Shown here: positions 28,861 through 38,468 of the stretch, in pieces
How positions within the stretch are numbered: the stretch's first letter is position 1
Layout: each line of letters opens with the position of its first letter
Assembly (NCBI GenBank): GCA_030426085.1
Contig: JAUHYW010000035.1
Location: 1 to 64,000 of the forward strand
Direction of reading: 5' to 3'
DNA length: 64,000 nt
Origin: a bacterium
GTDB taxonomy: Bacteria; Myxococcota_A; Bradymonadia; UBA7976; UBA1532
Notes under the pieces: generated by a model
What the model saw: the letters and a program-made list of their open reading frames with translations, nothing else
Told to the model about the DNA's origin: nothing
The model's database searches: none
Position numbers and translations under genes: made by a program

Positions 28861-28964
28861 GGTTCACGATACCCGCTCGCGGCACCCGCTCGCGGCACCC
28901 GCTCACGGCACCCGCTCACGGCACCAGTTCACGGCACCAGCTCACGGCAACCGCTCACGGCACC
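28861..28964. repeat. Eight tandem 13-bp units, CGCTCACGGCACC
   Basis: The units run 28861-28873, 28874-28886 and onward to 28952-28964. Variants are GGTTCACGATACC, CGCTCGCGGCACC, AGTTCACGGCACC and AGCTCACGGCAAC. The array fills the gap between convergent genes. The minus-strand kinase stop codon (28955-28957) sits in the last unit, so unit changes would alter that protein's C-terminus. Confidence 0.88.
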
Positions 28965-30325
28965 AGCTCGAACTGCTCCTCCAGCTCGACGTGCACCGTA
29001 TCGTCCTCGTCGGCCCGGGCCGAGACCGTCTTGCCCACGTAGTTGCGCTTGCGCAGCCGCACCTTGACCCGGCCCTCGGCCTGGGGCCGCTCGATCGTCA
29101 GCGGGGTGCGGCCGACTCGGTCGCCGTCGACATAGACCGTCGCCCCCGACGGGCGCGAGGTGACCTCCAGCTTCACCATCGGGATCACCGCGTCGAGCAC
29201 CATCACGTCCGGGGGCAGGGCATCGACCACCGCCGCGTCGGGGAGGGCGACGTCCACGATGGGGGCCGCGTCGGCCACCGCCGCGTCGGGCGGCGGGGCG
29301 GCGCCCCGGTCGACGACCAGCATCGCCGTCAGCCCGCCGACGAGCAGCATCACCGCCAGCAGCGCGCCGACCGCTTGCAGGCTCCAGCCGCCGCCGGCCT
29401 CGTCGATCGTCGTCATCGCCTCGGCGAAGGTGGCCGCGTCGGGGAACCGGTTGGCGGGATCCTTGGCCAGCGCGCAGTGCACCGCCGCCGCCACCCGGGG
29501 CGAGACCCCCGGGGCCACCTCGCGCAGGTCGGGCGGCGGGCTGTGGGCCTGCTGGTAGAGGATCGACATCGGGGTCGGCCCATCGAAGGGCGGTCGGCCG
29601 GTCAGCGCGGTGAAGGCGATCACCCCCAGGGCGTAGATGTCGGCCCGGCCGTCCACCTCGCCCGCGGAGAACATCTCCGGCGGCATGTAGCGGGGGGTGC
29701 CCACCGTCGAGGCCGCCTCGACCCCCTCGGCGTCGTCCTCGATCTGCTGCACGATGCCCAGATCCATCACGGTGACGCGCCCGTCGTCGCCCACCATGAC
29801 GTTGCCCGGCTTGAGGTCGCGGTGCACCAGCCCCACCGCGTGCAGGGCGGTCAGCGCGTCGCACACCTCGGCGACGATCTGCTGCACCCCGGCCTCGGGC
29901 AGCGGGCCCTCGACCCGCAGGATCTCGTCCAGGGTGCGCCCCTCGACGAACTTCATGACCATGTAATAGACGCCCGACTCCTGGCCGATCGCGTAGGCCG
30001 GCACCAGGTTGCGGTGCTCGACGCTGGCCAGCGCCCGGGCCTCGTGCATGAACCGGGCGAGCACCCCCGCGTCGGCCCCCGACATCCGCATGGCCTTGAT
30101 GGCCACCGGGCGGCTCAGCGTCAGATCGGTGCCTCGGTAGACGACGCCCATGCCGCCCCGGCCCACCTCGACGTCGATGCGATAGCGCCCCTCGAGCACC
30201 GTGCCCCGCTCGAAGGGCTGGGGGCCACCGCTGCGGTCGAAGCCGCAGGCGGGGCAGATCGGGCTCGACTCGGCGACGATCGCCGCGCATGCGGGGCAGG
30301 TGGCGACGGTGGACCTTCCTTCCAT
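28955..30325 (-). CDS. Zinc-ribbon Ser/Thr kinase with TM and PEGA domain
   Basis: The protein has 456 residues. An N-terminal zinc ribbon (C10-x2-C13 and C24-x2-C27) is followed by a kinase domain (47-305), which has GRGGMG in the P-loop, K77, HRD D170 and DLG at 188-190 in place of DFG; the catalytic residues are otherwise intact. A TM helix lies at about 318-338. The outer part is a PDAAVADA-type linker ending in a PEGA domain (389-450: LEVTSRPSGATVYVDGDRVG). It is divergent from the kinase at 30391 by 65 bases, and probably forms a sensory kinase pair with it. The TGA lies in the 13-bp tandem repeat. Confidence 0.92.
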   Translation of the reverse strand: MEGRSTVATCPACAAIVAESSPICPACGFDRSGGPQPFERGTVLEGRYRIDVEVGRGGMGVVYRGTDLTLSRPVAIKAMRMSGADAGVLARFMHEARALASVEHRNLVPAYAIGQESGVYYMVMKFVEGRTLDEILRVEGPLPEAGVQQIVAEVCDALTALHAVGLVHRDLKPGNVMVGDDGRVTVMDLGIVQQIEDDAEGVEAASTVGTPRYMPPEMFSAGEVDGRADIYALGVIAFTALTGRPPFDGPTPMSILYQQAHSPPPDLREVAPGVSPRVAAAVHCALAKDPANRFPDAATFAEAMTTIDEAGGGWSLQAVGALLAVMLLVGGLTAMLVVDRGAAPPPDAAVADAAPIVDVALPDAAVVDALPPDVMVLDAVIPMVKLEVTSRPSGATVYVDGDRVGRTPLTIERPQAEGRVKVRLRKRNYVGKTVSARADEDDTVHVELEEQFELVP

Positions 30326-30390: not shown

Positions 30391-31491
30391 GTGAGCAGCA
30401 TCTCCCAGACCCCCTGCGTGCACTGCGGCGCGGCGCTGTCGGCGGACGCGACGCTGTGCGGCCGCTGCGGGCAGGCCCAGATCCCCGACGAGCTGCCCGA
30501 CCACTGGATCGGGCGGGTGGTCGACGGCAAGTACGAGATCGAAGAGGTGCTCGGGGTCGGCGGCATGGGCATGGTCTTCGCCGCCCGGCGGGTGCTCGTC
30601 GGCGACCGGGTCGCGCTGAAGGTGTTGTTCCCCCGCTTTCTCGAGAGCCCCTTGCAGCGGCGCCTCTTCCGCGACGAGGCCATCGCCGCCGCCCGGCTGA
30701 GCCACGACAACGTGGTGTCGGTCTTCGACGCCGACGTCAGCGACGAGGGGGCGGCCTACATCGCGATGGAGCTGCTCGACGGGCGCACGTTCAAGGCGCT
30801 GCTGCGCGAGCGGGCGCCGCTGCCGGCCGACGAAGCGGTGGCCATCGCCATCGAGGTCTGCGCCGGGCTCGACGCCGCCCACCGGGCCCGGATCATCCAC
30901 CGCGACCTCAAGCCGGACAACATCTTCCTCGAGACCCGACCCGACGGCGGGCACCGGGTCAAGCTGGTCGACTTCGGCATCGCCGCGATGCTCGACGGCG
31001 ACCGCTCCGACGAGAAGCGCCAGCGGCTGGGCACCCTGCGCTACATGGCCCCCGAGCAGTGCAAGGGGCGGGACGTCGACCCCCGGGCCGACCTCTACGC
31101 GCTGGGGGTGGTGCTCTACGAGGCGCTGACCCGGCGGCGGGCGACGGGCAAGACGGTCAGCGCGGTGCTCGAACAGGTGCCCGATCCGCCCAACGTGCAC
31201 CTGACGCCCGATCGGCAGCTCCCGCCCGCGCTCGAGGTGCTGCTGCTGCGGCTGCTGGCCAAGTCCCCCGACGACCGCCCGCCCACCGCCGCCGCCGCCG
31301 GCGAGGCCTTCGTGGCGATCGACGCGGTGATGCGGGGCGAGGCGCCGCCGATGGTGCTCCAGCCGCTCCTCGACGGGCCCCCGCCGACCCCGCCGCCGCC
31401 TGCGCCATCCGAGGGGCCCGCCCTGGTGACCGTCATCGGGCTGGCCATCGCGGTGGGCGTCATCGGCGGCCTGGTGTGGGCTCTCATCTGA
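30391..31491 (+). CDS. Zinc-ribbon Ser/Thr kinase with C-terminal TM
   Basis: The protein has 366 residues. A zinc ribbon with CVHC and CGRC pairs (residues 9-26) is followed by a Hanks kinase (about 46-300) with GVGGMG, K77, HRD D172 and DFG (VDFGIAA). Residues 325-345 are Pro-rich, then one TM helix (TVIGLAIAVGVIGGLVW) ends the protein, so it is anchored with almost no extracytoplasmic part. The GTG start has no strong Shine-Dalgarno; the TATAAT box at 30341 fits its transcription. It differs from its divergent neighbour in lacking an outer sensor. Confidence 0.92.
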   Translation: MSSISQTPCVHCGAALSADATLCGRCGQAQIPDELPDHWIGRVVDGKYEIEEVLGVGGMGMVFAARRVLVGDRVALKVLFPRFLESPLQRRLFRDEAIAAARLSHDNVVSVFDADVSDEGAAYIAMELLDGRTFKALLRERAPLPADEAVAIAIEVCAGLDAAHRARIIHRDLKPDNIFLETRPDGGHRVKLVDFGIAAMLDGDRSDEKRQRLGTLRYMAPEQCKGRDVDPRADLYALGVVLYEALTRRRATGKTVSAVLEQVPDPPNVHLTPDRQLPPALEVLLLRLLAKSPDDRPPTAAAAGEAFVAIDAVMRGEAPPMVLQPLLDGPPPTPPPPAPSEGPALVTVIGLAIAVGVIGGLVWALI

Positions 31492-34102: not shown

Positions 34103-34530
34103 CGGTCCTCCGATCGAATGTTGCTCTTCGGGTGTACCCCGGCCGCCCTTCACGGGGAAGAGCGCCGCGTCCGCGAAATTTTTTCTGGTGGTCCGCAGAC
34201 GGTTATCAGCGGTTTCACTGGCGTTCTGGTTGCCACCCTACTGCCACGCCCGAGACGCCAGCAAAACCGTTTGCGCGCGTAAACATCGGGCTCAGCGGGT
34301 TCCGGCCCTTCGTAGCCGGCCCGCCTCCTGCCATCGCTGGTGACCTCCGGCCGGGCCGTCCAGCGCATTCGGTGAGCGGGCATCACAGCGAAGTCCGAAG
34401 AAAACTCGATCGGCCACCGGACACTCTGGGGCTCTCGTTCCCTAGTCCTCTCGGAAACCTGAGCCAGAACGCGACGTCGGCGCGCAGCGAGGCGCTCAAG
34501 GTCGTGAGAACCGGTGGTGTACGAAGCGTT
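34103..34530. other. Divergent intergenic region with AT-richer island
   Basis: No gene is supported here. The stretch 34177-34300 is less GC-rich than its neighbours (GAAATTTTTTCTGG, and AAAACCGTTTGC). It contains an imperfect inverted repeat: CGGTTTCACTGGCGT at 34210-34224 pairs with ACGCCAGCAAAACCG at 34255-34269 (13 of 15 bases). Two TGCCAC copies lie between the arms, at 34231 and 34242. The segment probably holds the promoters of the lipoprotein and sigma genes. An att-like or recombination scar is possible but not shown. Confidence 0.5.
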
Positions 34531-34557
34531 GACACTCACTCAGCCCGAAGCCATGAT
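34529..34557 (+). promoter_or_regulatory. Predicted promoter TTGACA-N17-CATGAT
   Basis: A consensus TTGACA (34529-34534) is followed after 17 bases by CATGAT (34552-34557). Transcription would start near 34564. This makes the upstream GTG (34514) and ATG (34553) unlikely starts for the sigma-like gene and favours GTG 34631. Confidence 0.5.
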
Positions 34558-34630
34558 TCGCCCATCGGTGCGATCCCCTCATGACACACGCGCCGGACTC
34601 ACGAATCGAACCACCCCCAAGGTCGAGTTG

Positions 34631-35299
34631 GTGCGTTCCCCCGGCAGCCTCCTGCATACTCTCATCGCGCTCGAAGCATCGGGCGACTGGTCCAGGCGCC
34701 TCGAGGAATATCGCCGCGAGTTGTTTCGATACGTCGCCGCGCTGCGGGGCACACCCGTCGAGCGGACCCAATGCCAGGACGAGTTGAAAGCCCTGCTCGA
34801 GAGCGAACTCGCGGGGCTGTTGTCCTGTCGCGATCTGGCCGAGCGCAGCGCCCGGCGGGACGCCCTCAACGAGATGATCGCCGACACCGAGGCCATGGCC
34901 GAGGCCATGAATCTGGCCGCGCTCCGCCTCTCGCTCGAGAGGCCGGCGAACATGGTCTCGTTCCTGCGGGCCAAGCTGATCTGGCGGGCCAACGACATCC
35001 TCGAGTCGGAGCGGCGGCGGCACGATCGGCGGGTGATCTCCTCCTCCGACCCGCTCGGTCTGGCGCCCCTCGAACAGCGCACGGTGAACGAGGCTCCCCT
35101 GATGGACCGTCGGATCCTGCTGCGCGAGATCCTCGAGACCTTCGGCGGGGAGGGCGACGAGGACGGCGCCCGCATCCTCGAGGGGCTGCTGGAGGGTCTC
35201 TCCATCGCCGAGCTGGCCCGGCGCACCGGGCGCTCGCGGCAGCAGATCTATCGGTTCCTGGATCGCATCCGCATCTGGGCCGAGAGGTTCAAGTCGTGA
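34631..35299 (+). CDS. Sigma-70-family-like factor (ECF-type)
   Basis: The protein has about 222 residues from GTG 34631, or 261 if it starts at 34514. The central segment NMVSFLRAKLIWRANDILESERRR resembles sigma region 2.3-2.4. After a linker, GARILEGLLEGLSIAELARR-TGRSRQQIYRFLDRIRIW is a clear region-4 HTH, with the helix-turn-helix spacing of ECF sigma factors. The N-terminal ~70 residues are helical and not conserved-looking. Its stop overlaps the start of the anti-sigma-like gene (GTGA), which overlaps the caspase gene (ATGA), so all three should be made together. TTGACA-N17-CATGAT lies upstream. Core RNA polymerase binding is inferred. Confidence 0.78.
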   Translation: MRSPGSLLHTLIALEASGDWSRRLEEYRRELFRYVAALRGTPVERTQCQDELKALLESELAGLLSCRDLAERSARRDALNEMIADTEAMAEAMNLAALRLSLERPANMVSFLRAKLIWRANDILESERRRHDRRVISSSDPLGLAPLEQRTVNEAPLMDRRILLREILETFGGEGDEDGARILEGLLEGLSIAELARRTGRSRQQIYRFLDRIRIWAERFKS

Positions 35300-36600
35300 A
35301 GACGCCGGTGTGCAGGAGGACGTTGCTCGTGCTCAAAGCGATCGAGCAGGACCGCCTGGAGGTCTTCCCCGAGCTGTACGCGCACTACGAGCGATGCGCC
35401 GCATGCCGCGACGCCGCCCACGACCGGATGCGCCCCGGCCTGCTCGACGTGACCCTCGAGCGCGCCGCCGAGGCCCTCGCCGAAGAAGACCGCGTCGCGC
35501 GCACCGAGCGGCGCAAGCCACCCGCCCTGCGCATCGTCGGGGACGGGCTGATCCGGCCGCCGCCTGCGCCATCGGGTGAGGCGGCCGGCATGGCGCTCGA
35601 TCCCAACGAGGTGGCGTTCCTGCTCTCTGATCTGGCGCCCTCGAACATCGACGTCGACGCCCTGCCGCAGGAGGCCCGCGACCGGCTGTACGCCGCCGCG
35701 ATCCGAATCGACGCGTCCGCACCCGACGAGCCCTCCCTGGTCGACCGGCTCGGGCTGGCGCCGCCCCAGCCCGCGCAGTCGCCGGCCTCGCCCGCGCAGC
35801 CAGCCGCCGAGCCCGCGCTGTCGCCGGCCGAGCCCGCGCTGTCGCCGGCCGAGCCTGTGCTGTCGCCGGCCGCGCCCGCGCAGCCGCCGGCCGAGCCCGC
35901 GCAGCCAGCCGCCGAGCCCGCGCGGCCGCCGGCCGTCCTCGACGCCCCGGGCCGCCGGCCCGCCCCTCGCCCGTGGCCCGTGCTGGCGGCGGCGGCGGCG
36001 GTGATCCTGGCCGCGATCGGCCTCGGGCAGGTGCCCGACGGCGAGGGCCGGGGCGGCCCCCCGGTCGGCCCGATGCGGACCATGACCACCGAATGGGCGG
36101 AGGTGACGGTGCTCACCGCCGAGCGGCGCTGCGACGGCGTGGTGCTCCTCGACGCGAAGACCATCGGCGACCCGAACACCGGCCTGCCGCTGCCCGCCCA
36201 CCTCAAGGGCCACAACCCGTGCCGCTACCACCCCGAAGAGAACCTGGGGGTGTTCGTGCGGGTCGAGCCGGGCGCCGGCTTCCGTCACCTCTCGGTCCTC
36301 ACGCGGGCAGCCGACGGCCGGGTCGAGGTGCTGCACACGAGCCAGGGTCCGCGGGGCATGTCGTTGGTGATGACCCGTGAACGGGTGACCACCGGCTGCG
36401 GAGATGGTGCATGCTGGCTGGGTGACGGCCCGTTGGACGTACCCGACGGCCCGCTGGAGGTCGTCGCGATCTTCAGCGACACTGCGCTGCCGCTGGACGC
36501 CATGCGGCGCACCTGGGCCCCGATGCGCTGGGTCGGCCCCGACCGGCTGGTGCAGCGCTTCGGGATACGAGTCCGCGACGAGGAAGGGAACCCCGAATGA
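35296..36600 (+). CDS. ZAS-type anti-sigma-like transmembrane protein
   Basis: The protein has 434 residues. At the N-terminus C6, H30, C34 and C37 (HYERCAACR) give the zinc-binding HxxxCxxC signature of ZAS anti-sigma domains. The cytoplasmic part ends in Ala/Pro-rich repeats (SPAEPALSPAEP, PAQPAAEPA). One TM segment (PVLAAAAAVILAAIGLG, about residues 225-245) places a ~185-residue domain outside, with WAEVTVLTAERRCDGVVLLD and FVRVEPGAGFRHLSVL; it has no recognised family. GTG start inside the upstream stop. The layout (sigma, anti-sigma with TM, exported protease) suggests signal-dependent release of the sigma factor. The outer domain could be the sensor or caspase substrate; both are inference. 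Confidence 0.82.
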   Translation: MKTPVCRRTLLVLKAIEQDRLEVFPELYAHYERCAACRDAAHDRMRPGLLDVTLERAAEALAEEDRVARTERRKPPALRIVGDGLIRPPPAPSGEAAGMALDPNEVAFLLSDLAPSNIDVDALPQEARDRLYAAAIRIDASAPDEPSLVDRLGLAPPQPAQSPASPAQPAAEPALSPAEPALSPAEPVLSPAAPAQPPAEPAQPAAEPARPPAVLDAPGRRPAPRPWPVLAAAAAVILAAIGLGQVPDGEGRGGPPVGPMRTMTTEWAEVTVLTAERRCDGVVLLDAKTIGDPNTGLPLPAHLKGHNPCRYHPEENLGVFVRVEPGAGFRHLSVLTRAADGRVEVLHTSQGPRGMSLVMTRERVTTGCGDGACWLGDGPLDVPDGPLEVVAIFSDTALPLDAMRRTWAPMRWVGPDRLVQRFGIRVRDEEGNPE

Positions 36601-38468
36601 CGCGTGCGAGGTGGCGCTCAGCGCCGTGGGTCATCGCGATGACGCTGCTCTGCGGAGGCTCGGCGTCTGCTTATTCGCCGAGCGATACGACCCCCGCGGT
36701 CGACGCCCCCGAGCCCCGCCCGGTCTTCGCCCTGAGCATCGGTCAGCCCCGGGCCCCCGGCATGCCCGAGCTGCGCGCGGTGCACAGCGACGTCGCCATG
36801 ATGCACGCCTTCTTCGGCGCGCTCGGCCCCCGACACCGCTACGTGCACCTGCCCCCGAGCGACGTGCGGAGCGACCTCGCCGGCGACGGTACGACGGTCG
36901 GTGCGCCGACCTGGGCCGACATCGAGGCGTCGGTCGACGCCATCGAGGCCGCAGTCGACGCGCTCGACGGCCGGGCCGATGTGTATATCTACTATGCCGG
37001 GCACGGCCGCAAGCGGCGGGTGGGGTCACACACCCGCACCGATCTCTTCCTCGAGCCGCAGGTGCCGGCCACCACCGCCCCGGGCCACGACGGCATCCTC
37101 ACCACCCGCCTCCTGCAACAGCAGCTGCTCGCCCGGCTCGACGGCGAGCAGACCCGGGTGCACCTGATCGTCGACGCCTGCCAGAGCGCGTTTCTGCTCG
37201 AAGCCCGGGGCCTGCGCTACACCCACCGGGTGTTCAAGGCGCCCCCCCAGGTCGAGGCCCGCATGCTCACCGACTTCATCGGCCGCTACGCCTCGGTGGG
37301 CGCGCTGCTCGCGACGAGCGGCAGCCAGGTGACCTACGAGAGCGTCGCCTCGGGCGGCGTCTTCAGCTACGCGGTGCGCAGCGCCGCCATCGGCGCGGCC
37401 GACCTCGACGGCGACGGGCGCATCACCTACGGCGAGCTCAAGCAGGTGCTGCCCTCGATCGTCAGCAAGCGCCCCGGGGGCAGTGTGCCCCGGCTGCTCG
37501 CGCCCGGGGGCCGGGATGACGAGGCGTTCGTCGACTATCGGCGGCGGGGCGCGGCCGCGGTGACCTTCGCCCCGCCCCGGGCCACCCGCTACGAGCTGCA
37601 ATCGAGCCTGTACGAGCCCTACGCCGCGCTCTACCCCGACGGCGACGACCCGGCGGTGGTCTTCCTGCCCCGCGACACGAAGTTCCTCGCGCTCGCCGAG
37701 GTCCCCGACAGCGGCCCCCGGGTCTGGTACCGCTTCCAGGCGATGAGCCGGGGCTTCGAGGCCTTGCAGGAGCGCCACACCCGGCCCACACAGCTGACGC
37801 GGGCCGACGACGACGCCCCGCATCTGGTCCTGCACAGCCCCCTATCGGCGTCGACGCTGGTCCCGGTGGGCGACCCCCCGTGGACCTGGAACCCCCAGCA
37901 CTACACGACCGTGGCGTTGGCGCTGACCACCGAGGCGGCGCTCTACGGGCGCACGCTGGCGGCGTCCGAGACCCGGGTGACGGCCGGCGGCGAAGTCAGC
38001 GGGGTATATGGCCGAGGGGAGCACCAGCTCACATGGCGTATGGGATATTCCCACTGGGATTCGAGCGAGTACCAGGGCGTCACCCCCCAGATGGTCGAGG
38101 AGAACCCCGATCTGCCCGAGAGGTCGCTGCTCGAGCGGCGCGGTCACATGCCCCGCCTGGCGCTGGGATACCAGTTCATCTTCGCCGAGTTCCCGCTCGC
38201 TGAGCTGTCGGCCGGGGTCTTCGCCGGCACGGGCCTGCTCCTCGAAGAGCGTGAGAACGACGGTCGGACGCTCGTCGCCGAGCCCATCTGGGTGCTCGAG
38301 GGCGGCGCCGATCTGACCGCGCGGCTGTTCGTCCCCAATACCCGGGGCGCGATCAGGCTCGACGTGCGGGCCTCGGCCCAGGGCTTCTTCGACCCGTTCT
38401 ACCCGTGGACCGACTTCATCGCTGGGGCGAGCATCGGGTACGAGTACGAGTTCGCGCTGAACGACTGA
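36597..38468 (+). CDS. Exported caspase-family (C14) protease with C-terminal barrel-like domain
   Basis: The protein has 623 residues. A signal peptide (APWVIAMTLLCGGSASA) is followed by the caspase-fold catalytic domain, residues about 40-320. The dyad is complete: H136 in YYAGHG and C195 in VDACQS. A calcium-binding EF-hand-like loop DLDGDGRITYGE (269-280) closes the domain, as in several bacterial caspases. Residues about 435-623 alternate polar and hydrophobic strands (VALALTTEAALYG, GGEVSGVYGRGEHQLTWRMG, IRLDVRASAQGFFDP), resembling an outer-membrane beta-barrel or surface domain. The C-terminus (FALND) lacks a terminal Phe. ATGA overlap with the anti-sigma-like gene. Enzymatic targets are unknown. 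Confidence 0.88.
   Translation: MTRARWRSAPWVIAMTLLCGGSASAYSPSDTTPAVDAPEPRPVFALSIGQPRAPGMPELRAVHSDVAMMHAFFGALGPRHRYVHLPPSDVRSDLAGDGTTVGAPTWADIEASVDAIEAAVDALDGRADVYIYYAGHGRKRRVGSHTRTDLFLEPQVPATTAPGHDGILTTRLLQQQLLARLDGEQTRVHLIVDACQSAFLLEARGLRYTHRVFKAPPQVEARMLTDFIGRYASVGALLATSGSQVTYESVASGGVFSYAVRSAAIGAADLDGDGRITYGELKQVLPSIVSKRPGGSVPRLLAPGGRDDEAFVDYRRRGAAAVTFAPPRATRYELQSSLYEPYAALYPDGDDPAVVFLPRDTKFLALAEVPDSGPRVWYRFQAMSRGFEALQERHTRPTQLTRADDDAPHLVLHSPLSASTLVPVGDPPWTWNPQHYTTVALALTTEAALYGRTLAASETRVTAGGEVSGVYGRGEHQLTWRMGYSHWDSSEYQGVTPQMVEENPDLPERSLLERRGHMPRLALGYQFIFAEFPLAELSAGVFAGTGLLLEERENDGRTLVAEPIWVLEGGADLTARLFVPNTRGAIRLDVRASAQGFFDPFYPWTDFIAGASIGYEYEFALND

Follow-up and report, generated by a model that had tools for sequence, protein, structure and literature searches.

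What does an exported caspase do in the same operon as a sigma factor and a membrane-bound anti-sigma factor? The question is raised by three consecutive genes on the forward strand of contig JAUHYW010000035.1 (C97), part of the 10.1-Mb draft genome GCA_030426085.1 of a bacterium of the Myxococcota (Myxococcota_A, Bradymonadia in GTDB); the 64,000 nucleotides of this contig that were analysed are referred to below as the window. The genes encode, in this order, a protein resembling sigma factors of the extracytoplasmic function (ECF) type, a single-pass membrane anti-sigma factor and a metacaspase-like protease with a predicted outer-membrane barrel. The answer we favour, although we see it as evenly poised between right and wrong, is that the envelope caspase performs the site-1 cleavage of its cognate anti-sigma factor, with an M50 protease finishing the process. 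This answer builds on a computed set of features, namely a conserved gene order, the folds, an intact active site, an export signal and a basic residue that is conserved and lies in a linker predicted to be disordered. The features of the operon in the window are the following.

34514..35299, + strand: ECF-like sigma gene, longest frame (region 4/helix-turn-helix by Pfam; sigma profile of relatives; hhalign; orthologue L060)
34529..34557, + strand: promoter-like element TTGACA-N17-CATGAT at the sigma start or immediately ahead of it (conserved in L060 as TTGACA...CATCAT, by reading)
35296..36600, + strand: membrane anti-sigma gene, 434 residues (HxxxCxxC motif, one transmembrane segment, homology to anti-sigmas of other triads)
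35296..35514, + strand: N-terminal helical anti-sigma domain with C6 (35311), H30 (35383), C34 (35395) and C37 (35404) (AlphaFold helices)
35974..36030, + strand: transmembrane segment, residues 227-245 (hydropathy; AlphaFold helix 231-244)
36049..36054, + strand: R252-G253, candidate site outside the membrane for cleavage by the caspase (conserved R/K column; predicted disordered linker)
36097..36573, + strand: periplasmic beta domain (DUF4384-like), residues 268-426 (hhalign; DUF4384 in relatives; low-confidence model)
36597..38468, + strand: exported metacaspase-like caspase with C-terminal barrel, 623 residues (Pfam, AlphaFold, structure searches)
36597..36671, + strand: predicted signal peptide, residues 1-25 (AlphaFold helix 9-23, then SASA)
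36717..37556, + strand: caspase domain, residues 41-320, with H136 at 37002, D193 at 37173 and C195 at 37179
37401..37436, + strand: EF-hand-type loop DLDGDGRITYGE, residues 269-280 (Pfam EF-hand)
37902..38453, + strand: 8-stranded beta barrel, residues 436-619 (AlphaFold strands; OmpA, NspA and OprF matches)

Conservation of the operon across Myxococcota

Both of the four-base overlaps that an earlier note on this DNA had reported are present, GTGA at 35296-35299 between the sigma and anti-sigma genes and ATGA at 36597-36600 between the anti-sigma and caspase genes, and such overlapping genes are probably co-expressed. The overlap of the anti-sigma stop with the caspase start is exactly four bases in 87 of 109 tandem pairs. 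The survey of Myxococcota for the same triad, which the earlier note had put forward as a check, bore out the association. It brought together 115 distinct anti-sigma/caspase pairs, M. xanthus included, which are to be read as distinct loci and not as independent evolutionary events; gene starts in the relatives come from a simple gene finder, some of the contigs are cut, and the metagenome-assembled genomes (MAGs) may be incomplete. A caspase search in 96 relatives recovered homologues in 22, and outside the genus caspases of the same subfamily have the sigma and anti-sigma genes directly upstream on the same strand in nearly all cases. A scan of genome contigs found the same gene order in Myxococcus (including M. 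xanthus AM003), Pyxidicoccus, Hyalangium, Archangium and many MAGs. The genome that harbours the window holds five further triads (L006, L007, L008, L009 and L241). It contains 45 Sigma70_r2 genes, yet six of its 14 located caspase genes sit behind a sigma/anti-sigma pair, and the linkage of the three genes is thus far beyond chance.

The association also holds when approached from the anti-sigma side. A search of the class with the anti-sigma only gave 22 full-length matches, 21 of which adjoin a caspase, the remaining one stopping at a contig end. In the phylum as a whole, 85 of 190 genomes had a match to the anti-sigma profile at 1e-8 (in some of them via the generic N-terminal part only), and a caspase lies directly downstream in all 60 sampled loci, recognised by profile in 59 and by reading in L250. 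Seven sigma/anti-sigma pairs (L174-L178, L180 and L181) have no caspase; since these match the profile only weakly or only in its N-terminal half, the outer domain of the anti-sigma is the part that travels with the caspase. Distance matrices indicate that the sigma factor, the anti-sigma outer domain and the caspase are co-inherited, with r of 0.63-0.72 between them. A tblastn search of PLSDB with the M. xanthus caspase, made with regard to plasmid carriage, gave no match.

Some variants of this arrangement were encountered along the way. In a second type found in Myxococcaceae, the caspase is transcribed divergently from the sigma/anti-sigma pair but is still adjacent to it; here (L115:5900-7773 and L098, L113, L116, L117, L118, L121 and L126) two genes come after that of the caspase, one for a conserved protein that has two transmembrane segments and one for a lipoprotein carrying Ig-like (He_PIG) domains. 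Downstream of some triads of the class lies a gene for a small, exported, ComEA-like helix-hairpin-helix protein (PF12836; L072:8160-8663 and L075:4764-5321). Barrel caspases similar to that of the window also occur, amplified, without a sigma gene in a genome of the same genus (JAUHXC01, about a dozen copies) and in the genome of the window itself (L040-L048, L058 and L059). We rejected these paralogues as instances of the same system, since sigma and anti-sigma genes are absent beside them. Their cassette comprises a Ca2+-dependent phosphatidylinositol-specific phospholipase C (PF16670) and a divergent cysteine-rich lipoprotein with an FGE-sulfatase domain, is often located near a phage-type integrase, and looks mobile or expanding. 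One sigma-less paralogue in the genome of the window (L051:4784-7622, contig C89) has as its tail-to-tail neighbour a sigma-like gene akin to that of the window operon.

The anti-sigma linker and the exported caspase

The anti-sigma factor of the window has the build of a zinc anti-sigma (ZAS, zf-HC2) factor, with HxxxCxxC in a helical N-terminal domain and one transmembrane segment behind it. Its N-terminal part is predicted with good confidence to be helical (helices 9-73, predicted local distance difference test (pLDDT) about 90) and carries the cysteine and histidine residues that the earlier note had read as a zinc signature; a single hydrophobic segment at about residues 227-245 separates it from an outer part of 190 residues. 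No Pfam family was matched by the window protein, and zf-HC2 was found by Pfam in nine of 18 of its relatives. The protein appears to hold the adjacent sigma factor off. Its outer domain shows homology to the corresponding domains of the two other types of triad (hhalign 95.5% and 71%). DUF4384 (PF14326) has no match in the window anti-sigma, is above the Pfam cut-off in the triad anti-sigma of G044:C62 (41.4 versus 27 bits) and appears more weakly in several others; the name DUF4384-like rests on these relatives, because the genome of the window has no DUF4384 match at 1e-3.

An alignment of the 115 distinct anti-sigmas reveals one column just outside the transmembrane segment that is basic throughout (R in 59, K in 55 and one misaligned K read by eye), the second most basic column reaching 67%. 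The residue that follows is glycine in 92 of 113 proteins. The conserved R/K lies a median of 15 residues past the end of the transmembrane segment, and in most of the proteins no more than one further basic residue intervenes. In the window protein, the large alignment assigns this column to R261 and three smaller alignments assign it to R252; we prefer R252 because it is followed by glycine, as in the other anti-sigmas. Both residues fall in a stretch (244-267) between the transmembrane helix and the first strand that AlphaFold predicts to be disordered (pLDDT <50).

The window caspase is matched by Peptidase_C14 (PF00656) at 3.1e-8, and residues 41-320 of its AlphaFold2 model (26 sequences, mean pLDDT 79) best match metacaspases: Arabidopsis metacaspase 4 with Z 20.1 and 3.3 A over 230 residues (VIA-align), and Geobacter GSU0716 with Z 17.9. 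The H136/C195 dyad described in the earlier note is indeed complete, and the catalytic His, the catalytic Cys and the S1 Asp (D193 in the window protein) are each present in 115 of 115 triad caspases. Bacterial orthocaspases are known to cut after positively charged residues (PMC6426788). Given the conserved R/K-G, the predicted disorder, the invariant S1 Asp and this cleavage preference, we predict R252-G253 as the specific candidate site at which the caspase would cut.

An N-terminal hydrophobic segment occurs in 104 of the 115 triad caspases, which suggests that export is their common feature while their C-termini differ: among the caspases of the class some have GxRF-like barrel ends and others transmembrane helices. 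The barrel that the earlier note had suspected in the window protein was supported by structure prediction, the eight long strands of residues 436-619 matching OmpA (Z 17.8), NspA (Z 17.2) and OprF (Z 16.4), with a Foldseek E-value of 1.9e-8. With a caspase beside the homologous sigma/anti-sigma pairs and a barrel predicted at the C-terminus, neither of the two outcomes that the earlier note had named as fatal to its model was observed. The protein terminates in EYEFALND, four residues beyond the Phe, and many relatives terminate exactly in F. The EF-hand loop, likewise pointed out in the earlier note, is recognised by Pfam at 266-285, and its first Asp is kept in 115 of 115 triad caspases and Glu12 in 114 of 114. 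The loop is kept in all the relatives, and a role of Ca2+ may be that of a signal or of a structural cofactor.

The sigma encoded by the first gene of the operon is divergent. The earlier note's view of it as an ECF-like sigma factor holds by way of relatives: a profile of sigma genes from the triads of the same genome matches it at 8.5e-6, and hhalign to those sigmas, covering the end of region 2 plus region 4, yields 95.4%. Pfam by itself recognises only region 4/helix-turn-helix (Sigma70_ECF at 3.1e-4 over 193-258, 21.1 bits with a cut-off of 21.1), and region 2, within which the hhalign match begins, has no Pfam match. Sigma70_r2 is present in 19 of 22 aligned rows of the sigmas occupying the same position in relatives, and the sigma of orthologue L060 is 62% identical to that of the window. 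The start at 34529 given in the earlier note is probably too early, because the promoter-like element at 34529-34557 is common to the window and L060; this putative promoter suggests a start downstream of 34529, with 34553, 34628 and 34631 as alternative in-frame starts and the true one uncertain. Autoregulation by the sigma factor was considered and dropped: the upstream regions of 96 sigma genes show no enrichment of GGAAC-type motifs over shuffled sequence, so no common ECF-type promoter emerges there, and the lone GGAAAC-N16-CGTC of the window, at 34453, is absent from the orthologue.

Elsewhere in the window, a divergent pair of Ser/Thr kinase genes was noted at 28955-30325 (- strand) and 30391-31491 (+ strand); each product has an N-terminal zinc-ribbon and one of them a PEGA domain.

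Proposed proteolysis of the anti-sigma and competing explanations

From these features we infer a pathway, including the cleavage, its position, the second cut, the role of Ca2+ and the direction of signalling. The sigma factor would be held at the inner membrane by the zinc-type N-terminal domain of the anti-sigma. The caspase would be exported and, in the subtype represented by the window, anchored in the outer membrane by its OmpA-like barrel, so that the protease domain would lie in the periplasm. Once a signal arrives, and probably with its EF-hand-type loop occupied by Ca2+, it would cut the anti-sigma after the conserved basic residue (R252) and so remove the DUF4384-like periplasmic domain, whereupon an M50 site-2 protease would cut the remaining stub and free the sigma factor. 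Matches to M50 (PF02163) exist at four loci in the genome. The broader proposition, that a multi-copy family spanning the phylum employs envelope-anchored metacaspases as dedicated site-1 proteases cutting their cognate anti-sigmas at an invariant Arg/Lys, is one we put forward tentatively, considering it slightly more apt to fail than to hold.

Several points weigh against this pathway. To our knowledge, M50 proteases are near-universal, and their presence says little. That a caspase anchored in the outer membrane can reach the inner one is an assumption. The AlphaFold model of the anti-sigma is weak (predicted template modelling score (pTM) 0.38). The coupling of the outer domain with the caspase beyond that accounted for by the sigma is weak as well (partial r 0.26, versus 0.08 for the anti-sigma domain) and not specific, the periplasmic domain-to-sigma figure being 0.50 in the same distance-matrix test. 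Finally, the conserved basic residue could instead serve folding or contact with the membrane surface. Taken as a full alternative, with R/K-G as a structural or membrane-surface element and the caspase acting on the anti-sigma at another place, if at all, this last possibility strikes us as somewhat unlikely, an estimate that overlaps with those for the other alternatives below. It draws on the K-type proteins, where K-G lies only a few residues before the first strand, and on L250:3198-4829, whose caspase has ATC in place of DAC, and thus Ala at S1, while its anti-sigma retains K-G. The dipeptide is, however, rare before DUF4384 domains of other proteins (R/K-G or R/K-S at the equivalent place in one of 15 that are not anti-sigmas), the site is predicted to be disordered in the window protein, and R and K occur equally often, in keeping with what such proteases prefer at P1.

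The principal competitor to cleavage of the anti-sigma by the caspase reverses the direction of the pathway: the caspase would be an output, the sigma factor, freed by a different signal via another site-1 protease, would drive its own operon, and the protease would act on envelope or prey targets; the periplasmic domain of the anti-sigma may even bind and inhibit it. The gene overlaps, with the co-expression they make probable, agree with this, as do the developmental cell death role proposed in a 2012 survey for M. xanthus metacaspases (PMC3501461) and the many caspases of the genus in other cassettes, which imply that a caspase can work without a sigma factor. We nevertheless hold it to be unlikely, as no ECF-type promoter common to the sigma genes was found upstream of them, and it offers no reason for the invariant basic residue just beyond the membrane. 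Decidedly improbable, in our judgement, is a sensor complex of anti-sigma domain and caspase in which the caspase is kept inactive and its cut in the anti-sigma would shut off or reset the system instead of activating it; this reading accommodates the one-to-one pairing of the periplasmic domain with the caspase, and the conservation data fit it equally well, but loss of the periplasmic domain of an anti-sigma normally activates the ECF sigma factor. In RseA and RsiW such loss activates the sigma factor and does not silence it. As for chance neighbours or an annotation artefact, the divergence of the window sigma, with its region 2 missed by Pfam, is all that speaks in favour, and 115 distinct pairs, six copies in one genome and the conserved gene order already refute it, leaving it a negligible prospect.

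Relation to known systems

The earlier note had ranked the operon as the best candidate for an undescribed system, which goes too far, as the association of sigma factors with metacaspases in operons was reported in 2012. Asplund-Samuelsson et al. found four of the five M. xanthus metacaspases in operons with sigma-70 factors, and listed such operons also in Anaeromyxobacter, Haliangium, Sorangium, other myxobacteria, Ralstonia and Fibrobacter (PMC3501461). These share with the window the presence of both genes in one operon, and in M. xanthus AM003 (L107) the order is the same, with the anti-sigma in between. The operon section of that paper makes no mention of an anti-sigma, of export or a barrel, or of any cleavage site or mechanism; the paper treats the caspases as possible cell-death enzymes. 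We found no paper joining a bacterial metacaspase with an anti-sigma, most of the subscription literature and the main ECF reclassification paper lying outside the search.

In its proposed working, the window operon comes close to pathways of anti-sigma proteolysis, to which it may belong. RseA (cut by DegS and RseP) and RsiW (with an RseP-type protease) are likewise single-pass anti-sigmas with a cytoplasmic anti-sigma domain and a periplasmic domain, and site-2 proteases are encoded in the genome. The differences are that the caspase, as proposed, would replace the known site-1 proteases, that it is encoded one-to-one with each anti-sigma, and that in the window subtype it carries a predicted outer-membrane anchor.

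A caspase-superfamily protease encoded together with an ECF-type sigma factor and its inhibitor is also known from type III-E CRISPR, where the ECF inhibitor Csx30 is the substrate of the caspase-like Csx29 (PMC10028731). In that system (CASP or Craspase, with Csx29, Csx30 and CASP-sigma) cleavage relieves inhibition, a logic that the window operon resembles; CASP is, however, cytoplasmic and RNA-guided, uses a CHAT domain, and has no membrane anti-sigma, export or barrel. Membership of the window operon in type III-E CASP was ruled out, its protease being an exported Peptidase_C14 and no Cas gene having been recognised by eye among the predicted genes of the operon and its neighbours. A caspase-fold CHAT protein is genetically linked to the sigma factor in ECF54 too, but ECF54 has no anti-sigma and the protease is proposed to act on the sigma factor itself (PMC8999054).

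If the proposed pathway is true, a caspase would be added to the known inputs of anti-sigma proteolysis, bacterial metacaspases would be proteases with a signalling function, and a cytoplasmic sigma factor could be switched on by a protease that resides in the outer membrane. Bacterial metacaspases, mostly discussed in terms of cell death, are here tied one-to-one to anti-sigmas across a phylum. The pathway also makes a testable prediction, as it hinges on one predicted cleavage residue that is open to mutation, and the module is found in M. xanthus, a tractable organism.

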